Shown: positions 11,855-26,328 of the stretch, piece by piece | Numbering within the stretch: the stretch's first letter is position 1 | Layout of the letters: each line of letters begins with the position of its first letter | DNA from: a virus | Reading direction: 5' to 3' (one strand) | IMG/VR virus record: IMGVR_UViG_3300035703_000362 | Span: 1 to 27,756 of that record | DNA length: 27,756 nt | The notes under the pieces: model-generated | What the model saw: only the letters and a program-made list of their open reading frames with translations | Told to the model about the DNA's origin: nothing | Database searches by the model: none | Position numbers and translations under genes: made by a program

Positions 11855-12276
11855 AGCTCAACAGCGCGTCCTTCGCCAAGCTCAAGGGCGTCCATCCCGA
11901 CCTAGTGCGCATCGTGCTGCGCTGCGCTGAAGACTGGGCCGAGGCCGACACGGGCTTCATTGTCACCTGCGGCGTGCGCACGCTGGAGGAGCAGAAGATC
12001 CTCAAGGCCAAGGGCGCCAGCAAGACGCTGCGCTCGCGCCACATCCCTGCCGCCAACGACTACTCTCACGCCGTCGATCTGGCCTGCACGATCAAGGGCG
12101 CGGTGCGCTGGGACTGGCCGCTCTACGACAAGCTGGCCAAGCGTATGAAGGCCGCCGCCAAGAAGGAAGGTGTGCTACTGGAGTGGGGCGGCGACTGGAA
12201 GACGTTCAAGGACGGTCCACATTTTCAACTGCCGTGGGTCCAGTATCCCGGCGCCAAGACAGGAGCAAAGACATGA
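11851..12276 (+). CDS. Endolysin, M15 family L-alanyl-D-glutamate-type peptidase
   Basis: 141 residues, typical length for phage M15 endolysins. Zinc-site residues are visible: His64 in RSRH, Asp76 in AVDL and His124 in GPHFQLP, with a likely catalytic Asp115 in EWGGDWKTFKDGPHF. It would cut the peptide part of peptidoglycan once the holin opens the membrane. No signal peptide. The spacing between His64 and Asp76 is about five residues longer than the usual SxHxxGxAxD arrangement because of a short inserted loop (IPAANDYS). The gene is coupled by overlaps to the membrane gene before and the holin after. Confidence 0.9.
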   Translation: MKLNSASFAKLKGVHPDLVRIVLRCAEDWAEADTGFIVTCGVRTLEEQKILKAKGASKTLRSRHIPAANDYSHAVDLACTIKGAVRWDWPLYDKLAKRMKAAAKKEGVLLEWGGDWKTFKDGPHFQLPWVQYPGAKTGAKT

Positions 12277-20996: not shown

Positions 20997-23300
20997 ATGT
21001 CAGACTTTTTAGAATACTTGACCGGCCTTGCGCCGGAAGGCGAAACAGCCCTCATCTTGCGCCAGAAGCCATCGCTGCGCGACGGTGAAATACAGTATCA
21101 TTCGGATGGCGCGCCCAAGGCGACGTTTCCGGCGTTCTTGCCGAACCACAAGCGCCGCGACGGTGAGAGCTGGTTCATTAACACGGGCTCGTTCATCATC
21201 GACCGTTTCGACGGCAAGCCGTCCGCCAAGCGCGAGAACGTCGAGTTCGTTCTGTTCATGATGCTCGACGACGTCGGTACCAAGTCGAAGGTGTCGCCGC
21301 TGCCGCCCACATGGATCATGGAGACGTCGGAGGGCTCGTTCCAGTGGGGCTACGCATTCAAGGAACAGCCGACCAAGGGCGCGTTTTCATCTGCTATCAA
21401 GGCCATCGCAGCGGCGGGCTATACCGACCCCGGCGCCATCAACCCCGTCCGCAATTGCCGCCTGCCCGGCTCGGTCAACCTGAAGCTCGGGCGCAACAAT
21501 TTCCCGGCGCGGCTGGTCGAGTTCCACCCAGAGCGCGAGTATACCCTGCCGCAGATCTGCGAGGCGATAGGCGTCGCGCCGGGCGAGGACGAAGGGCCGG
21601 GGCTCCAGTCCATCAAGATCCGCGACACGGGCAGCGACAGCGTGCTGCGTTGGATGTCGGCTCAAGGGCTGGTGCTCTCCCAGGTCAACCGCGAGGGCTG
21701 GTGCGGCGTCGTCTGCCCGAACAGCGGCGAGCATACGGACGGCAACCCGGAGGGCCGCTACTCGCCCGTCAACCGCGCGTTCTGTTGCTACCATGGACAC
21801 TGCCAGCATCTCGACAGCAACGCCTTCCTTGCATGGGTGGCCGAGCAGGGCGGGCCGACGGTGCAGGCGGGCTTCCGCGAGGAGCTGGTGGCCGAGCGCA
21901 TGGCCATGGTAGCCGCGACGATCCGGCCGACCGAGGCGTTCCCTGATGCGGCTGCCGAGGTCGTGGCCGAGGTTGACCGCAAGGAGCTGGGCCGCCTGAC
22001 CAAGCGCGAGTGGTTCAGCCGCTTCGCGTACATCGTCGAGGACGACGCCTATTTCGACATGATCGACCGGCGGGAGATGACGCGCGGCGCGTTCAACGCA
22101 GTGTTTAGACACGTCGATTGCAAGTCCATCCACACGCAGCGTAAGGTCGAGGCGTCCGTCTGCTACGATGAGAACCGCCAGGCGTCCGGCGCGCGGGTGC
22201 TGCGCGGGCTGACCTACGCCGCTGGCGAGAGCGTGCTAGTGGCGCGCGATGGCGAGGTCTACGGCAACCGCTGGATTGACGCGCGGCCGGACCTGTCCGG
22301 TGTTGCGGCCAGTGAAATTTCACCGTGGCTGGCCCATGCCGAGCTGCTGATCCCCGACCCGGTCGAGCGCGAGCACGTCCTTGACGTGATGGCCTACAAG
22401 CTCCAGCACCCGGAGGTGAAGATCAATCATGCGGTCCTGCATGGCGGCGATGAAGGTTGTGGCAAGGACACGCTCTGGTTTCCGTTCATCTGGTCGGTCT
22501 GCGGGCCGAACCTGCGCAACCGGGGCCTTGTGGATGCCGACGGCATCAATTCCCGCTGGGGCTATGCCTTGGAAAGCGAGATCCTGATCCTGAACGAATT
22601 GAAGGAGCCGGAGGCGAAGGAGCGCCGCGCGCTGTCGAACAAGCTGAAGCCGATCATCGCGGCACCGCCGGACACGCTCACCATCGAGCGCAAGGGCTTG
22701 CACCCGTATGACATGGTCAACCGCCTGTTCGTGCTGGCCTTCACCAATGACCCGGTGCCGATCACGCTCCCGACGCAGGACCGGCGCTGGTTCTGTATCT
22801 GGTCCTATGCGCCGCGCATGAACAAGGCCGACGCCGCGGTGCTCTGGGACTGGTACAAGGGCGGCGGGCTGCAGGCGGTCGCGCGATGGCTCAAGGCGCG
22901 CGACGTGTCGGCGTTCAACCCCAAGGCGATGCCGCCTTGGACGGACTACCGCACGCGCCTGATTGAGACGGGCCGCAGCATGGCCGAAAGTTATGTGATC
23001 GAGCAGGTCATGCGGCCATCGCCTGAGTTCGCCGCGGGCGTCATCGCCTCCCCGTTCCACAAGCTTTGCAGCACCTTGCAGCAGGGTGCGCCGGGCGGCG
23101 TCAAGATCCCGCAGGCGGCGTTCCTGCACGGTCTCAAGGAAGCGGGCTGGATCGACCTTGGCGCCGTCAAGTCAGCCGAGTTCCAGACCAAGAAAAACAT
23201 CTGGGCGCGCGAGGACATGGTGCGCACCTACTCAAAGAGCGACCTGCGGCGCATGGTCGAGCACGCCGCAGGTCCGGGGCTTACAGTGGTGAAGAGTTAG
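20997..23300 (+). CDS. Primase-helicase (RepB-like primase plus D5/DUF5906-type helicase)
   Basis: 767 residues; ribosome site AGAGGAA. The N-terminal part (about 40-190; FMMLDDVGTKSKVSPLPPTW, WIMETSEGSFQWGYAF, NPVRNCRLPGSVNLKLG) matches RepB-like primase modules. Residues 234-270 contain Cys and His residues of a probable zinc site (CGVVCPNSGEH, FCCYHGHCQH). The C-terminal half is a superfamily 3 type helicase: Walker A GGDEGCGKDT (483-492), Walker B-like LILNELKEPEAK (about 528-540) and DRRWFCIWS. It would prime and unwind at the origin. Last gene of the rightward replication operon; its stop overlaps the minus-strand micro-ORF. Confidence 0.88.
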   Translation: MSDFLEYLTGLAPEGETALILRQKPSLRDGEIQYHSDGAPKATFPAFLPNHKRRDGESWFINTGSFIIDRFDGKPSAKRENVEFVLFMMLDDVGTKSKVSPLPPTWIMETSEGSFQWGYAFKEQPTKGAFSSAIKAIAAAGYTDPGAINPVRNCRLPGSVNLKLGRNNFPARLVEFHPEREYTLPQICEAIGVAPGEDEGPGLQSIKIRDTGSDSVLRWMSAQGLVLSQVNREGWCGVVCPNSGEHTDGNPEGRYSPVNRAFCCYHGHCQHLDSNAFLAWVAEQGGPTVQAGFREELVAERMAMVAATIRPTEAFPDAAAEVVAEVDRKELGRLTKREWFSRFAYIVEDDAYFDMIDRREMTRGAFNAVFRHVDCKSIHTQRKVEASVCYDENRQASGARVLRGLTYAAGESVLVARDGEVYGNRWIDARPDLSGVAASEISPWLAHAELLIPDPVEREHVLDVMAYKLQHPEVKINHAVLHGGDEGCGKDTLWFPFIWSVCGPNLRNRGLVDADGINSRWGYALESEILILNELKEPEAKERRALSNKLKPIIAAPPDTLTIERKGLHPYDMVNRLFVLAFTNDPVPITLPTQDRRWFCIWSYAPRMNKADAAVLWDWYKGGGLQAVARWLKARDVSAFNPKAMPPWTDYRTRLIETGRSMAESYVIEQVMRPSPEFAAGVIASPFHKLCSTLQQGAPGGVKIPQAAFLHGLKEAGWIDLGAVKSAEFQTKKNIWAREDMVRTYSKSDLRRMVEHAAGPGLTVVKS

Positions 23301-23356
23301 AGGTCGAGCCAGGCGGCCACAAGGGCCGCCAGCACCAAGGCCGCCAGCATGATCAT
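23297..23356 (-). CDS. Possible 19-residue membrane peptide
   Basis: The ATG (23356-23354) overlaps the stop of the DnaA-like gene as ATGA, and the frame runs 19 codons to TAA. The peptide starts MIMLAALVLAALVAAW and is one hydrophobic segment, enough for a short membrane helix. The DNA carries a tandem repeat of about 15 bp (LAALV twice) and the plus strand has a 7-bp GC hairpin (23312-23330). It fills the gap up to the convergent primase-helicase stop. Such a short, GC-rich frame could arise by chance; coupling is the only support. Confidence 0.35.
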   Translation of the reverse strand: MIMLAALVLAALVAAWLDL

Positions 23357-23817
23357 GACAGGGCGCGCTCCACAAGGGCGCGCTCTTCTTCGTACTGGCC
23401 GCTTGCGCGCAGTTTGCGGAACGTCTTCAAGCTGTGGATCATCGTTGCATGGTCGCGCCGGTTCAACCAAGCCGCGATCTTGTCGAGCGGCAGGTCAGGC
23501 CGCCGCAGGCGCAGCTCCCAAACCGCATGGTGTCGCGCCATGCTGACGTCGCGTGTGCGTAGCGGGCCGCGCAGGATGTCGGCTGTGAGCCCATGCGCCG
23601 CCGCCACGGCCCACACGATCCGTTCCGGATGCGTCGTCGGCAGCGTCACGGGCTCGCTGTCGGGCGCGTCGGCAGCCCGCCGCAGGTGCTCCATGGCCAT
23701 GCGGGCCGCGCGCCAGACCGTCACGGGGCCGCCCGCGAGCTGCACCAGGTCGTCGAGGTACGCCCGCAGGCGACGTTCAATCTCTATTGCGTCCAGTAGC
23801 ACGTCGTGATACGTCAT
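23353..23817 (-). CDS. Stand-alone DnaA domain IV-like DNA-binding protein
   Basis: 154 residues. Residues 64-135 follow the DNA-binding domain IV of bacterial DnaA: RIVWAVAAAHGLTADILRGP, SMARHHAVWELRLRRPDLPL, KIAAWLNRRDHATMIHSLKT; the last includes the DnaA signature-like RDHATMIHS used to contact DnaA boxes. There is no AAA+ domain or N-terminal DnaB-binding domain, only a 60-residue helical leader. It may bind the phage origin or interfere with host initiation. It lies at the end of the leftward operon headed by the clamp homologue. Confidence 0.8.
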   Translation of the reverse strand: MTYHDVLLDAIEIERRLRAYLDDLVQLAGGPVTVWRAARMAMEHLRRAADAPDSEPVTLPTTHPERIVWAVAAAHGLTADILRGPLRTRDVSMARHHAVWELRLRRPDLPLDKIAAWLNRRDHATMIHSLKTFRKLRASGQYEEERALVERALS

Positions 23818-24967: not shown

Positions 24968-25531
24968 TCAAGCGATAGATCGCGCGATGTTCCAAGGCGT
25001 GATTTCGGACTGTTGGCGCATGGGCATGATGACCGCGAAACAGTCTGTACGGTCGCAGAACGTCACGCCGTGCGGGCTTTCGCGGTTCCAAGCGTGGATC
25101 TTGAAGAACGTACCTGTTTTGGAACCAAGCGCGCGGGCGATTTGGCCAAGGTCATAGATGTAATCCGGGTTGAAATGCGCGGGCGTTTGGTCCTCGCGGG
25201 GGCTGAACCCGTCAACGGGCGGGATGACTGCTTTCCAGTTTGGAAAAGTGCCGTCGACGGGCGTGAACGTCACGCCGCCGAGTGTGTTGCCGTTCAGTTC
25301 GATCGTGGCGGCCTTCTTCGGCGCCAGCTTGAGCGCAGCCTTGACCGTATCAAGCGGAATGATGACATCGGCCGCTGGGGCTTCAGTCAGCTTGGCACAA
25401 AAGAGCCGGTGCCCGTCCGTCGTCACCAGGTGACCGGACGTGGCCAGGTGCACGCCGCGGAGATAGTAGCGGCTCTCTTCCTGCGAAGCACAAAGCAGGG
25501 CGGCCTTGAGTAGATCAGTAGCAATTAGCAC
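24968..25531 (-). CDS. Half-length DNA polymerase III beta sliding clamp homologue
   Basis: 187 residues from the GTG at 25531 (AAAGGAG 8 bases upstream). DnaN-like phrases in order: SRYYLRGVHL (20-29; compare RYYLNG of DnaN), VTTDGHRLF (36-44; compare ATDGHRLA), VIIPLDTVKAAL, VDGTFPNWKAVIP (92-104; compare VDGRFPDYRRVLP), and an ending CFAVIMPMRQ that recalls the DnaN C-terminus VVMPMRL. Bacterial DnaN has about 366 residues and three domains; this protein fits the second domain plus a shortened third. It probably tethers the phage or host polymerase, perhaps as a higher oligomer. Confidence 0.78.
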   Translation of the reverse strand: MLIATDLLKAALLCASQEESRYYLRGVHLATSGHLVTTDGHRLFCAKLTEAPAADVIIPLDTVKAALKLAPKKAATIELNGNTLGGVTFTPVDGTFPNWKAVIPPVDGFSPREDQTPAHFNPDYIYDLGQIARALGSKTGTFFKIHAWNRESPHGVTFCDRTDCFAVIMPMRQQSEITPWNIARSIA

Positions 25532-25561
25532 AGTGTAGTCTCCTTTCCTGTTGATGCACCC

Positions 25562-25590
25562 ACTATGCCGAAGCATTCACAGCATGTCAA
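25562..25590 (-). promoter_or_regulatory. Sigma-70-type promoter of the clamp operon
   Basis: On the minus strand a perfect -35 TTGACA (25590-25585) is 17 bases from CATAGT (25567-25562), a 4 of 6 match to the -10. Transcription would start near 25555, giving a leader of about 25 bases with the ribosome site AAAGGAG before the GTG at 25531. This is the strongest -35 in the window's gene-free segments. Confidence 0.6.
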
Positions 25591-25665
25591 CAACTATTTT
25601 ATGTCATGCAAAAACCAGGCTGAATAGGTCTCGCAACGGTCGCTTGACGCGGAAAAATGGACGTG

Positions 25666-25683
25666 CTACGGCTTAAGCCGTAG
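25666..25683. repeat. Perfect 18-bp palindrome
   Basis: CTACGGCTTAAGCCGTAG is its own reverse complement. It lies between the clamp promoter and the terminator at 25689, and a weak plus-strand promoter (TTGACG at 25644, 17-base spacer, TACGGC) would overlap it. Likely a protein-binding operator; no partner assigned. Confidence 0.6.
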
Positions 25684-25688
25684 TGAGC

Positions 25689-25716
25689 AAACGGCGGCCC
25701 AACGGCCGCCGTTTTT
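25689..25716 (+). terminator. Rho-independent terminator, plus strand
   Basis: AAACGGCGGCC (25689-25699) and GGCCGCCGTTT (25704-25714) form a perfect 11-bp stem with a CAAC loop, followed by TT and CG, so the transcript ends in five U. On the opposite strand only three U follow. Nothing recognisable as a plus-strand gene lies just upstream, so it may end a short RNA or block antisense transcription from the clamp operon. Confidence 0.75.
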
Positions 25717-25717
25717 C

Positions 25718-25760
25718 GTTGGGTAGTTGGTGGGGTACGCGTGGGGTACAGCGTGGGGCA
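25718..25760 (+). repeat. In-phase GTGGGGTA-type iterons (left cluster)
   Basis: Four 9-mers start at 25718 (GTTGGGTAG), 25730 (GTGGGGTAC), 25741 (GTGGGGTAC) and 25753 (GTGGGGCAA), i.e. 11-12 bp apart, about one helical turn. Such spacing places bound proteins on one face of the DNA, as at replication origins or integrase arm sites. Confidence 0.75.
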
Positions 25761-25841
25761 ATGCGGAGTGGCTCTAAAAGCCGTATTCTATCGGCTCATG
25801 GGTAATATGGGTTATCTCTCTAGTTAAAGGACTGTTAAGTG

Positions 25842-25863
25842 TATATTAGTAAATGCTAATATA
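25842..25863. repeat. AT-rich inverted repeat in the gene-free region
   Basis: TATATTAG (25842-25849) and CTAATATA (25856-25863) are perfectly complementary with a 6-base loop. It is the A/T-richest point of the region and the natural place for strand opening if this is an origin. Confidence 0.6.
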
Positions 25864-25875
25864 ATAGTATGCTGT

Positions 25876-25894
25876 TACTGGAAGATACTGGAAG
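25876..25894 (+). repeat. Direct repeat TACTGGAAG x2
   Basis: TACTGGAAG occurs at 25876-25884 and 25886-25894, a 10-bp step that again puts both copies on the same DNA face, next to the A/T-rich inverted repeat. Confidence 0.6.
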
Positions 25895-25924
25895 GGCGAC
25901 TTCGAGTAAAATTAACGTTCTACA

Positions 25925-25943
25925 TTACCCCACACTACCCCAC
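25925..25943 (-). repeat. Inverted copies of the GTGGGGTA iteron (right cluster)
   Basis: On the minus strand GTGGGGTAG (25943-25935) and GTGGGGTAA (25933-25925), 10 bp apart, repeat the left iterons in opposite orientation about 165 bp away. A weaker relative (GTCGGGGCA on the minus strand) is at 25976-25968. Confidence 0.7.
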
Positions 25944-25944
25944 A

Positions 25945-25959
25945 GTGACGCTACGTCAC
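25945..25959. repeat. Operator-like inverted repeat GTGACG/CGTCAC
   Basis: GTGACG (25945-25950) and CGTCAC (25954-25959) are perfect arms around CTA. It follows the right iteron cluster directly and precedes the promoter of the gene at 26044. Confidence 0.55.
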
Positions 25960-25978
25960 CTCTCCGCTGCCCCGACGC

Positions 25979-26007
25979 TTGCACTCCCGCTGTTAGTCTG
26001 CTAGATT
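25979..26007 (+). promoter_or_regulatory. Promoter candidate for the gene at 26044
   Basis: TTGCAC (25979-25984) is 17 bases from TAGATT (26002-26007), matching sigma-70 boxes moderately. Transcription would start near 26014, about 30 bases before the ATG, which has AAAGGA upstream. CTAG tetramers occur at 26001, 26026 and 26036. Confidence 0.45.
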
Positions 26008-26043: not shown

Positions 26044-26328
26044 ATGGCACAGCTTTATGTCTACGCCGACACTTACGCCGACAATACCGCGACGCTGGAT
26101 GACACACTATCCATGCTAGCAAGCGATGAAATCATTACGTCAAGTCACAAGCAAACGCTGGCGCTGGCGATTGAGCCATTGCTTCCCTGCTCGTTAAAGA
26201 TAGGCGTGCGCACGCCTCTTAGCATTGTCTACTGCGAAGCTGGCGGCCGACGCTTCCGTGTCGGGCAACGCGGGCAGTTCATGCCAGGCAGCTGGCGCGC
26301 CAATCTGAGGACGAAACGTTTCTGGTAA
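26044..26328 (+). CDS. Small hypothetical protein before the packaging genes
   Basis: 94 residues; AAAGGA lies 9 bases before the ATG. The sequence starts MAQLYVYADTYADNTATLDD, has an acidic/polar first half with helix (SMLASDEIITSSHKQTLALA) and a second half with strands and basic residues (SIVYCEAGGRRFRVGQRGQF), ending SWRANLRTKRFW. The basic C-terminus could bind nucleic acid. No family recognised. It stands alone between two gene-free regions, and it contains one copy of the 9-mer CATGCTAGC that recurs before terS. Confidence 0.6.
   Translation: MAQLYVYADTYADNTATLDDTLSMLASDEIITSSHKQTLALAIEPLLPCSLKIGVRTPLSIVYCEAGGRRFRVGQRGQFMPGSWRANLRTKRFW

Follow-up and report, generated by a model that had tools for sequence, protein, structure and literature searches.

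A conserved two-sided iteron array in tailed phages: a very likely replication origin, probably read by a PrimPol-helicase

What function is served by a cluster of short direct repeats that faces inverted copies across A/T-rich DNA, in the non-coding gap between two phage operons? The window, meaning the whole stretch of DNA analysed, is a 27.8-kb linear IMG/VR fragment (27,756 nt; record IMGVR_UViG_3300035703_000362). The gap separates a leftward operon, which includes a gene for a sliding-clamp-like protein (24968-25576, minus strand) and one for a small protein with a DnaA domain IV helix-turn-helix (23353-23817, minus strand), from a rightward operon of the gene 26044-26328, TerS and TerL. 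An earlier note had proposed a candidate phage origin here, and the comparative evidence supports that as the best reading, with the start of replication itself inferred. We consider it very likely that the segment is the replication origin of the phage, read by its own PrimPol-helicase, because the layout is conserved, no integrase was found in the relatives searched and the repeats covary with that protein. Layout, conservation, independence of integrase and TerS, and a predictive link between repeat word and protein loop are shown by computation; direct binding, melting, ring loading and a bidirectional start are inferred.

Layout of the site in the window and in its relatives

The outer left iteron set (25719-25760, plus strand) consists of TTGGGTA, GTGGGGTAC, GTGGGGTAC and GTGGGGCAA at steps of 11, 11 and 12. 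In longer form the repeats read GTGGGGTA at 25730 and 25741 and GTGGGGCA at 25753, with the weaker TTGGGTA at 25719. On the right, two inverted copies of TACCCCAC (25926-25933 and 25936-25943, minus strand) follow one another at a step of 10. The gap between the left and right repeats, 25761-25925, is 165 bp. All five matches to GTGGGGYA in the window fall within 214 bp, inside the site, compared with about two per whole window in shuffled sequence. The four left repeats, the two inverted right repeats and the A/T-rich gap of about 165 bp thus stand where the earlier note had placed them. That note had missed an inner left pair, the tandem ATGGGTAAT-ATGGGTTAT (25798-25815, plus strand), which abuts the core and is the best-kept part of the site in an alignment of 17 relatives. 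The core (25817-25921), presumed to be the melting region, is 67% A/T, compared with 37% for the window; only 26 of 27,651 segments of its size are equally A/T-rich, and the window maximum also falls in the site. An inverted repeat of strand-opening type had been reported in the core and is present, as a dyad TATATTAG(N6)CTAATATA at 25842-25863. Some relatives carry TATATTAG/CTAATATA, and others have a different core sequence. A second direct repeat with a 10-bp step (TACTGGAAG), also reported, is not conserved; the near relative L008 has one copy.

A profile search recovers the site from over 25 close relatives, where it again lies in the gap before the terminase genes, 0.4-1 kb upstream of terS. 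In most of them, sets of TGGGG[T/C]A words occupy the matching position. The alignment of 17 relatives keeps the TGGGG[T/C]A words, a ATGGGTAAT-ATGGGTWAT pair, the A/T-rich core and the right repeats, either TGCCCAT or TACCCCAC. The position of the core is conserved and its sequence differs between relatives. The region corresponding to 25817-25921 is represented by several unrelated sequence types (L008, L009, L022, L044, L084), apparently swapped between close phages with the flanking iterons unchanged (L044 versus L084); the L084 core contains a perfect DnaA box, TGTGGATAA, near 12167-12175.

The relatives are 36-40 kb long. They encode P22-like portal, coat and stabilisation proteins together with the PrimPol-helicase and a family A polymerase, and several have been assembled as circles whose ends overlap by 127 bp. 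One 75,554-bp record, which holds L008, contains segments 78-80% alike that recur about 36-39 kb apart (L303-L306). It resembles two related genomes of about 37.7 kb placed head to tail, and is likely a chimeric or concatemeric assembly.

Distant relatives, with PrimPols about 60-65% identical, share the position and the layout (left direct repeats, an A/T-rich core of about 100 bp and inverted right repeats) but differ in the words used. Their words include GGGTCAT, TGTGGGT, TGTGGAC, TGGACAA, TAGTCAT, TTGTCAA, TTAGGC, TTGGTAGT and more. A search of related phages for the repeat, suggested at the outset, thus returned the same site in close relatives and different words in distant ones. Under an exact-word rule requiring two copies in direct and two in inverted orientation, with 70-190 bp of core between them, the layout occurs at 46 of 103 loci upstream of terS; control windows give 2 of 356 and shuffles 1 of 515. 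The public genome MW202483 has at least four copies of TTGGTAGT, a core and then ACTACCAA twice. Two Vibrio phages with distant PrimPols show no such layout.

A further element lies directly left of the iterons (25643-25714, plus strand). It comprises a promoter-like sequence, CTTGAC-N16-17-CTAC, an 18-bp palindrome (25666-25683) and an intrinsic terminator hairpin (25689-25714), and about 30 relatives keep it, with compensatory changes; whether it belongs to the origin is undetermined. The -10 of the promoter-like sequence sits inside the palindrome, with the terminator hairpin next to it. In relatives the palindrome keeps CTAC....GTAG, and its inner 10 bp vary among symmetric alleles (GGCTTAAGCC, GCCATATGGC, ACGCTAGCGT, GGATGCATCC and others). 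Near-identical phages may carry different alleles, as the window and L010 do, and we have no explanation for this.

The position between divergent operons, together with the promoter-like element and terminator at the left edge, suggests an operator or promoter at which the repeats bind a phage regulator of the leftward (clamp and DnaA-like) and rightward (terminase) operons. We regard this as unlikely. A search of the leftward operon found no regulator gene common to the relatives and no gene shared by all, and the repeat word tracks the wing of a replication protein, as described below. An origin could possibly regulate as well, and the two readings are not mutually exclusive.

The PrimPol-helicase wing and the repeat word

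The predicted initiator is the PrimPol-helicase encoded at 20997-23300 (plus strand), a DUF5906 protein with an NrS-1/SaPI-Rep-like fold. It meets the criterion for a DUF5906 SF3-type helicase C-terminal region, matching PF19263 above cut-off, and it occurs in every genome compared. Its best match in both sequence and fold is the NrS-1 PrimPol (6k9c/6k9e), and its fold also matches SaPI PriRep1 and SaPI5 Rep. Confidence in the structure model is moderate overall (mean pLDDT 62) and reaches 74-88 across most of residues 680-755, the wing region. At the C-terminus the model predicts a helix, a helix and a beta-hairpin, which we interpret as a winged helix with the hairpin tip, residues 721-731, as its wing.

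Iteron classes were set from DNA words before the protein was inspected, and the wing sequence tracks them. The class of the window has GAVKSAEFQT, the GGGTCAT class GRVASGDFQS, the TTGTCAA class GRLASHDYPS, the TAGTCAT class GRLMSRDYPS and the TTAGGC class GRIGSFEHSS. The TGTGGAC class has GRLKSREFDT, found also in L075, and KSREFDT recurs in L080, which lies far off on the tree. A provisional GATTGGC class for L042 was dropped, as both the inner left pair and the wing of L042 resemble those of L046. Permutation of class labels gives p = 0.0004 for the association between wing and class. Of 407 columns, the two with the strongest association are residues 725 and 727, in that order, with a family-wise permutation value of only about 0.05. 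A sliding scan of the PrimPol based on 6-mer sharing did not single out the wing; that scan is confounded by clade structure and was replaced by subclade comparisons. In two comparisons of sister groups that switch between GGGTCAT and TGTGGAC, the proteins are 86% identical overall but 36-37% identical in the wing, and both comparisons show parallel substitutions at 725 and 727.

The wing had been picked after the data were seen, and therefore a blind test was made. Viral contigs were chosen solely by their wing codons and the downstream DNA was scored afterwards, counting only new loci with enough DNA and requiring at least four copies of the predicted word. The predicted word was found in 58 of 63 new loci: TGTGGAC from wing KSREFD in 21 of 25, GGGTCAT from ASGDFQ in 29 of 30, TTGTCAA from ASHD(Y/F)P in all seven, and TAGTCAT from MSRDYP in the single locus available. 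The remaining five of the 63 had no word at threshold, and a wrong word reached threshold in none. These loci come from few clades, and independent switches number about four or five.

This result bears on a second alternative, in which the main reader of the origin is either host DnaA or the small DnaA-domain-IV-like protein 23353-23817, with TACCCCACA a variant of the DnaA box TTATCCACA. In its favour, the small protein matches PF08299 with an RDHAT signature, and one iteron class (TTGTGGAT/TTATCCACA) resembles DnaA boxes. Against it, many relatives share the layout yet yielded no DnaA-like protein, whereas a DnaA-box origin would call for a DnaA domain IV initiator in every phage with the site, and the wing predicts the word without a DnaA-like protein. 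We find this reading unlikely as well. The earlier note had suggested the 23353-23817 protein as the binder; as a determinant of specificity it is unsupported, although it may be an accessory factor. The clamp-like gene that adjoins the site carries conflicting annotations, with a sliding-clamp domain by Pfam (DNA_pol3_beta_2) and NCBIfam and a RusA-like Holliday junction resolvase as best PHROG.

Packaging and integration as alternatives

A pac site recognised by TerS is suggested by the location 0.4-1 kb upstream of terS, and the P22-like heads and the circular assemblies of complete relatives, with their overlapping ends, suit headful packaging. This is very unlikely, because TerS does not track the repeat word. 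TerS proteins 91-95% identical occur in phages with different words, and no TerS column separates the GGGTCAT class from the TGTGGAC class. The word changes needed number 19 on the TerS tree, 18 on the TerL tree and 15 on the primase tree, despite terS being closer to the site.

The repeats could instead be integrase arm sites of an attP. In support of this, tandem pairs of GTGGGGTA occur in other viral contigs, two or three of them in each of L085, L098, L133 and L156, and 19 of the 46 records found by this tandem pattern carry a tyrosine integrase, for which reason the word may possibly act as an arm site elsewhere. Among the relatives, tyrosine integrase (PF00589) was found in none of 31 records, several of them near complete, and serine recombinase/resolvase (PF00239) in none of 13. 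These absences all but exclude the attP reading here, and because of them the phages appear to be lytic.

Comparison with known origins and a proposed mechanism

Every PICI replication origin has an A/T-rich region between two sets of iterons, and these origins have been described as without parallel among bacterial replicons (PMC6092414). In SaPI Rep and SCCmec Cch2, it is a C-terminal domain that binds the origin iterons (PMC7581432). The site studied here resembles the PICI/SaPI pri-rep-ori arrangement (SaPIbov1, SaPI5, EcCICFT073) in its two iteron sets around an A/T-rich region and in a predicted AEP/D5-type helicase initiator with a fold match to PriRep1 and SaPI5 Rep. Where the C-terminal domain of the self-loading PICI/SaPI initiator reads the iterons, we have a predicted winged helix and wing covariation, from which binding is inferred. 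Several features differ. The phages that carry the site have their own capsid, terminase, portal and coat genes and no integrase, and a single phage clade shows turnover of the iteron word. The PICI/SaPI origin lies immediately 3' of rep, but here about 2.4 kb separates the end of the PrimPol-helicase gene (23300) from the start of the site (25719), which lies beside terS. The site would work like PICI/SaPI origins, with autonomous replication inferred, yet it is no PICI, as the criterion of an integrated satellite with integrase and without capsid genes is unmet.

For the NrS-1 PrimPol, primers start just 5' of the word TTTGGTTA, and two sites on opposite strands form a proposed origin (PMC8718748, PMC7102993). 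The short word occurring twice on opposite strands is a likeness, and TTTGGTTA is close to TATGGGTTAT and TTGGTAGT. The NrS-1 enzyme differs in that a single-stranded template is recognised by a helix-bundle domain, whereas here the C-terminal wing covaries and the words form arrays. In the PLE satellites of Vibrio cholerae, the DNA-binding domain of the RepA initiator covaries with the origin iterons and the two swap as a module (PMC8263062). Covariation with swapping is shared, but PLE has a RepA_N initiator and iterons of about 30 bp, and both protein and layout are unrelated.

If the site is a replication origin, as we favour, the iterons flanking the A/T-rich core would be bound by the PrimPol-helicase through its C-terminal winged helix. 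Rings would assemble face to face, load on the core and melt it, and the attached AEP primase would initiate leading strands departing both ways. If the NrS-1 priming rule applied here, by analogy, the facing words would direct outward synthesis on both sides. Some observations count against the origin reading. Cumulative GC skew, proposed earlier as a check, was followed in seven long relatives and does not turn at the site, and by analogy with PICIs the origin would be expected directly 3' of the initiator gene, where it is not.

A bolder reading, which we put forward tentatively and do not quite favour, is that origin recognition in the clade follows a code that switches rapidly. The 7-9-bp word of the whole array would be set by a few wing residues (725, 727 and 730), and phages that are otherwise alike would repeatedly have changed word and wing in concert. 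The likely driver would be evasion of superinfecting kin, of parasites of the origin or of nucleases directed at it, as is known for PLE and Odn.

Relative to the open-access literature searched, three things are new: the kind of element that carries the site, the code that links wing to word, and how far the words have turned over. The two-sided iteron arrangement, very likely an origin, is found here in a group of freshwater, seemingly lytic tailed phages that occur in many environmental metagenomes. The iteron word, as lock, is predictable from a loop of the primase-helicase, as key, and this link amounts to a code of protein-DNA specificity that can be read off and that comes in natural variants. 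A change of partners between initiator and origin would be directly testable through wing swaps, and origins in uncultured phage genomes may be locatable from one protein loop.
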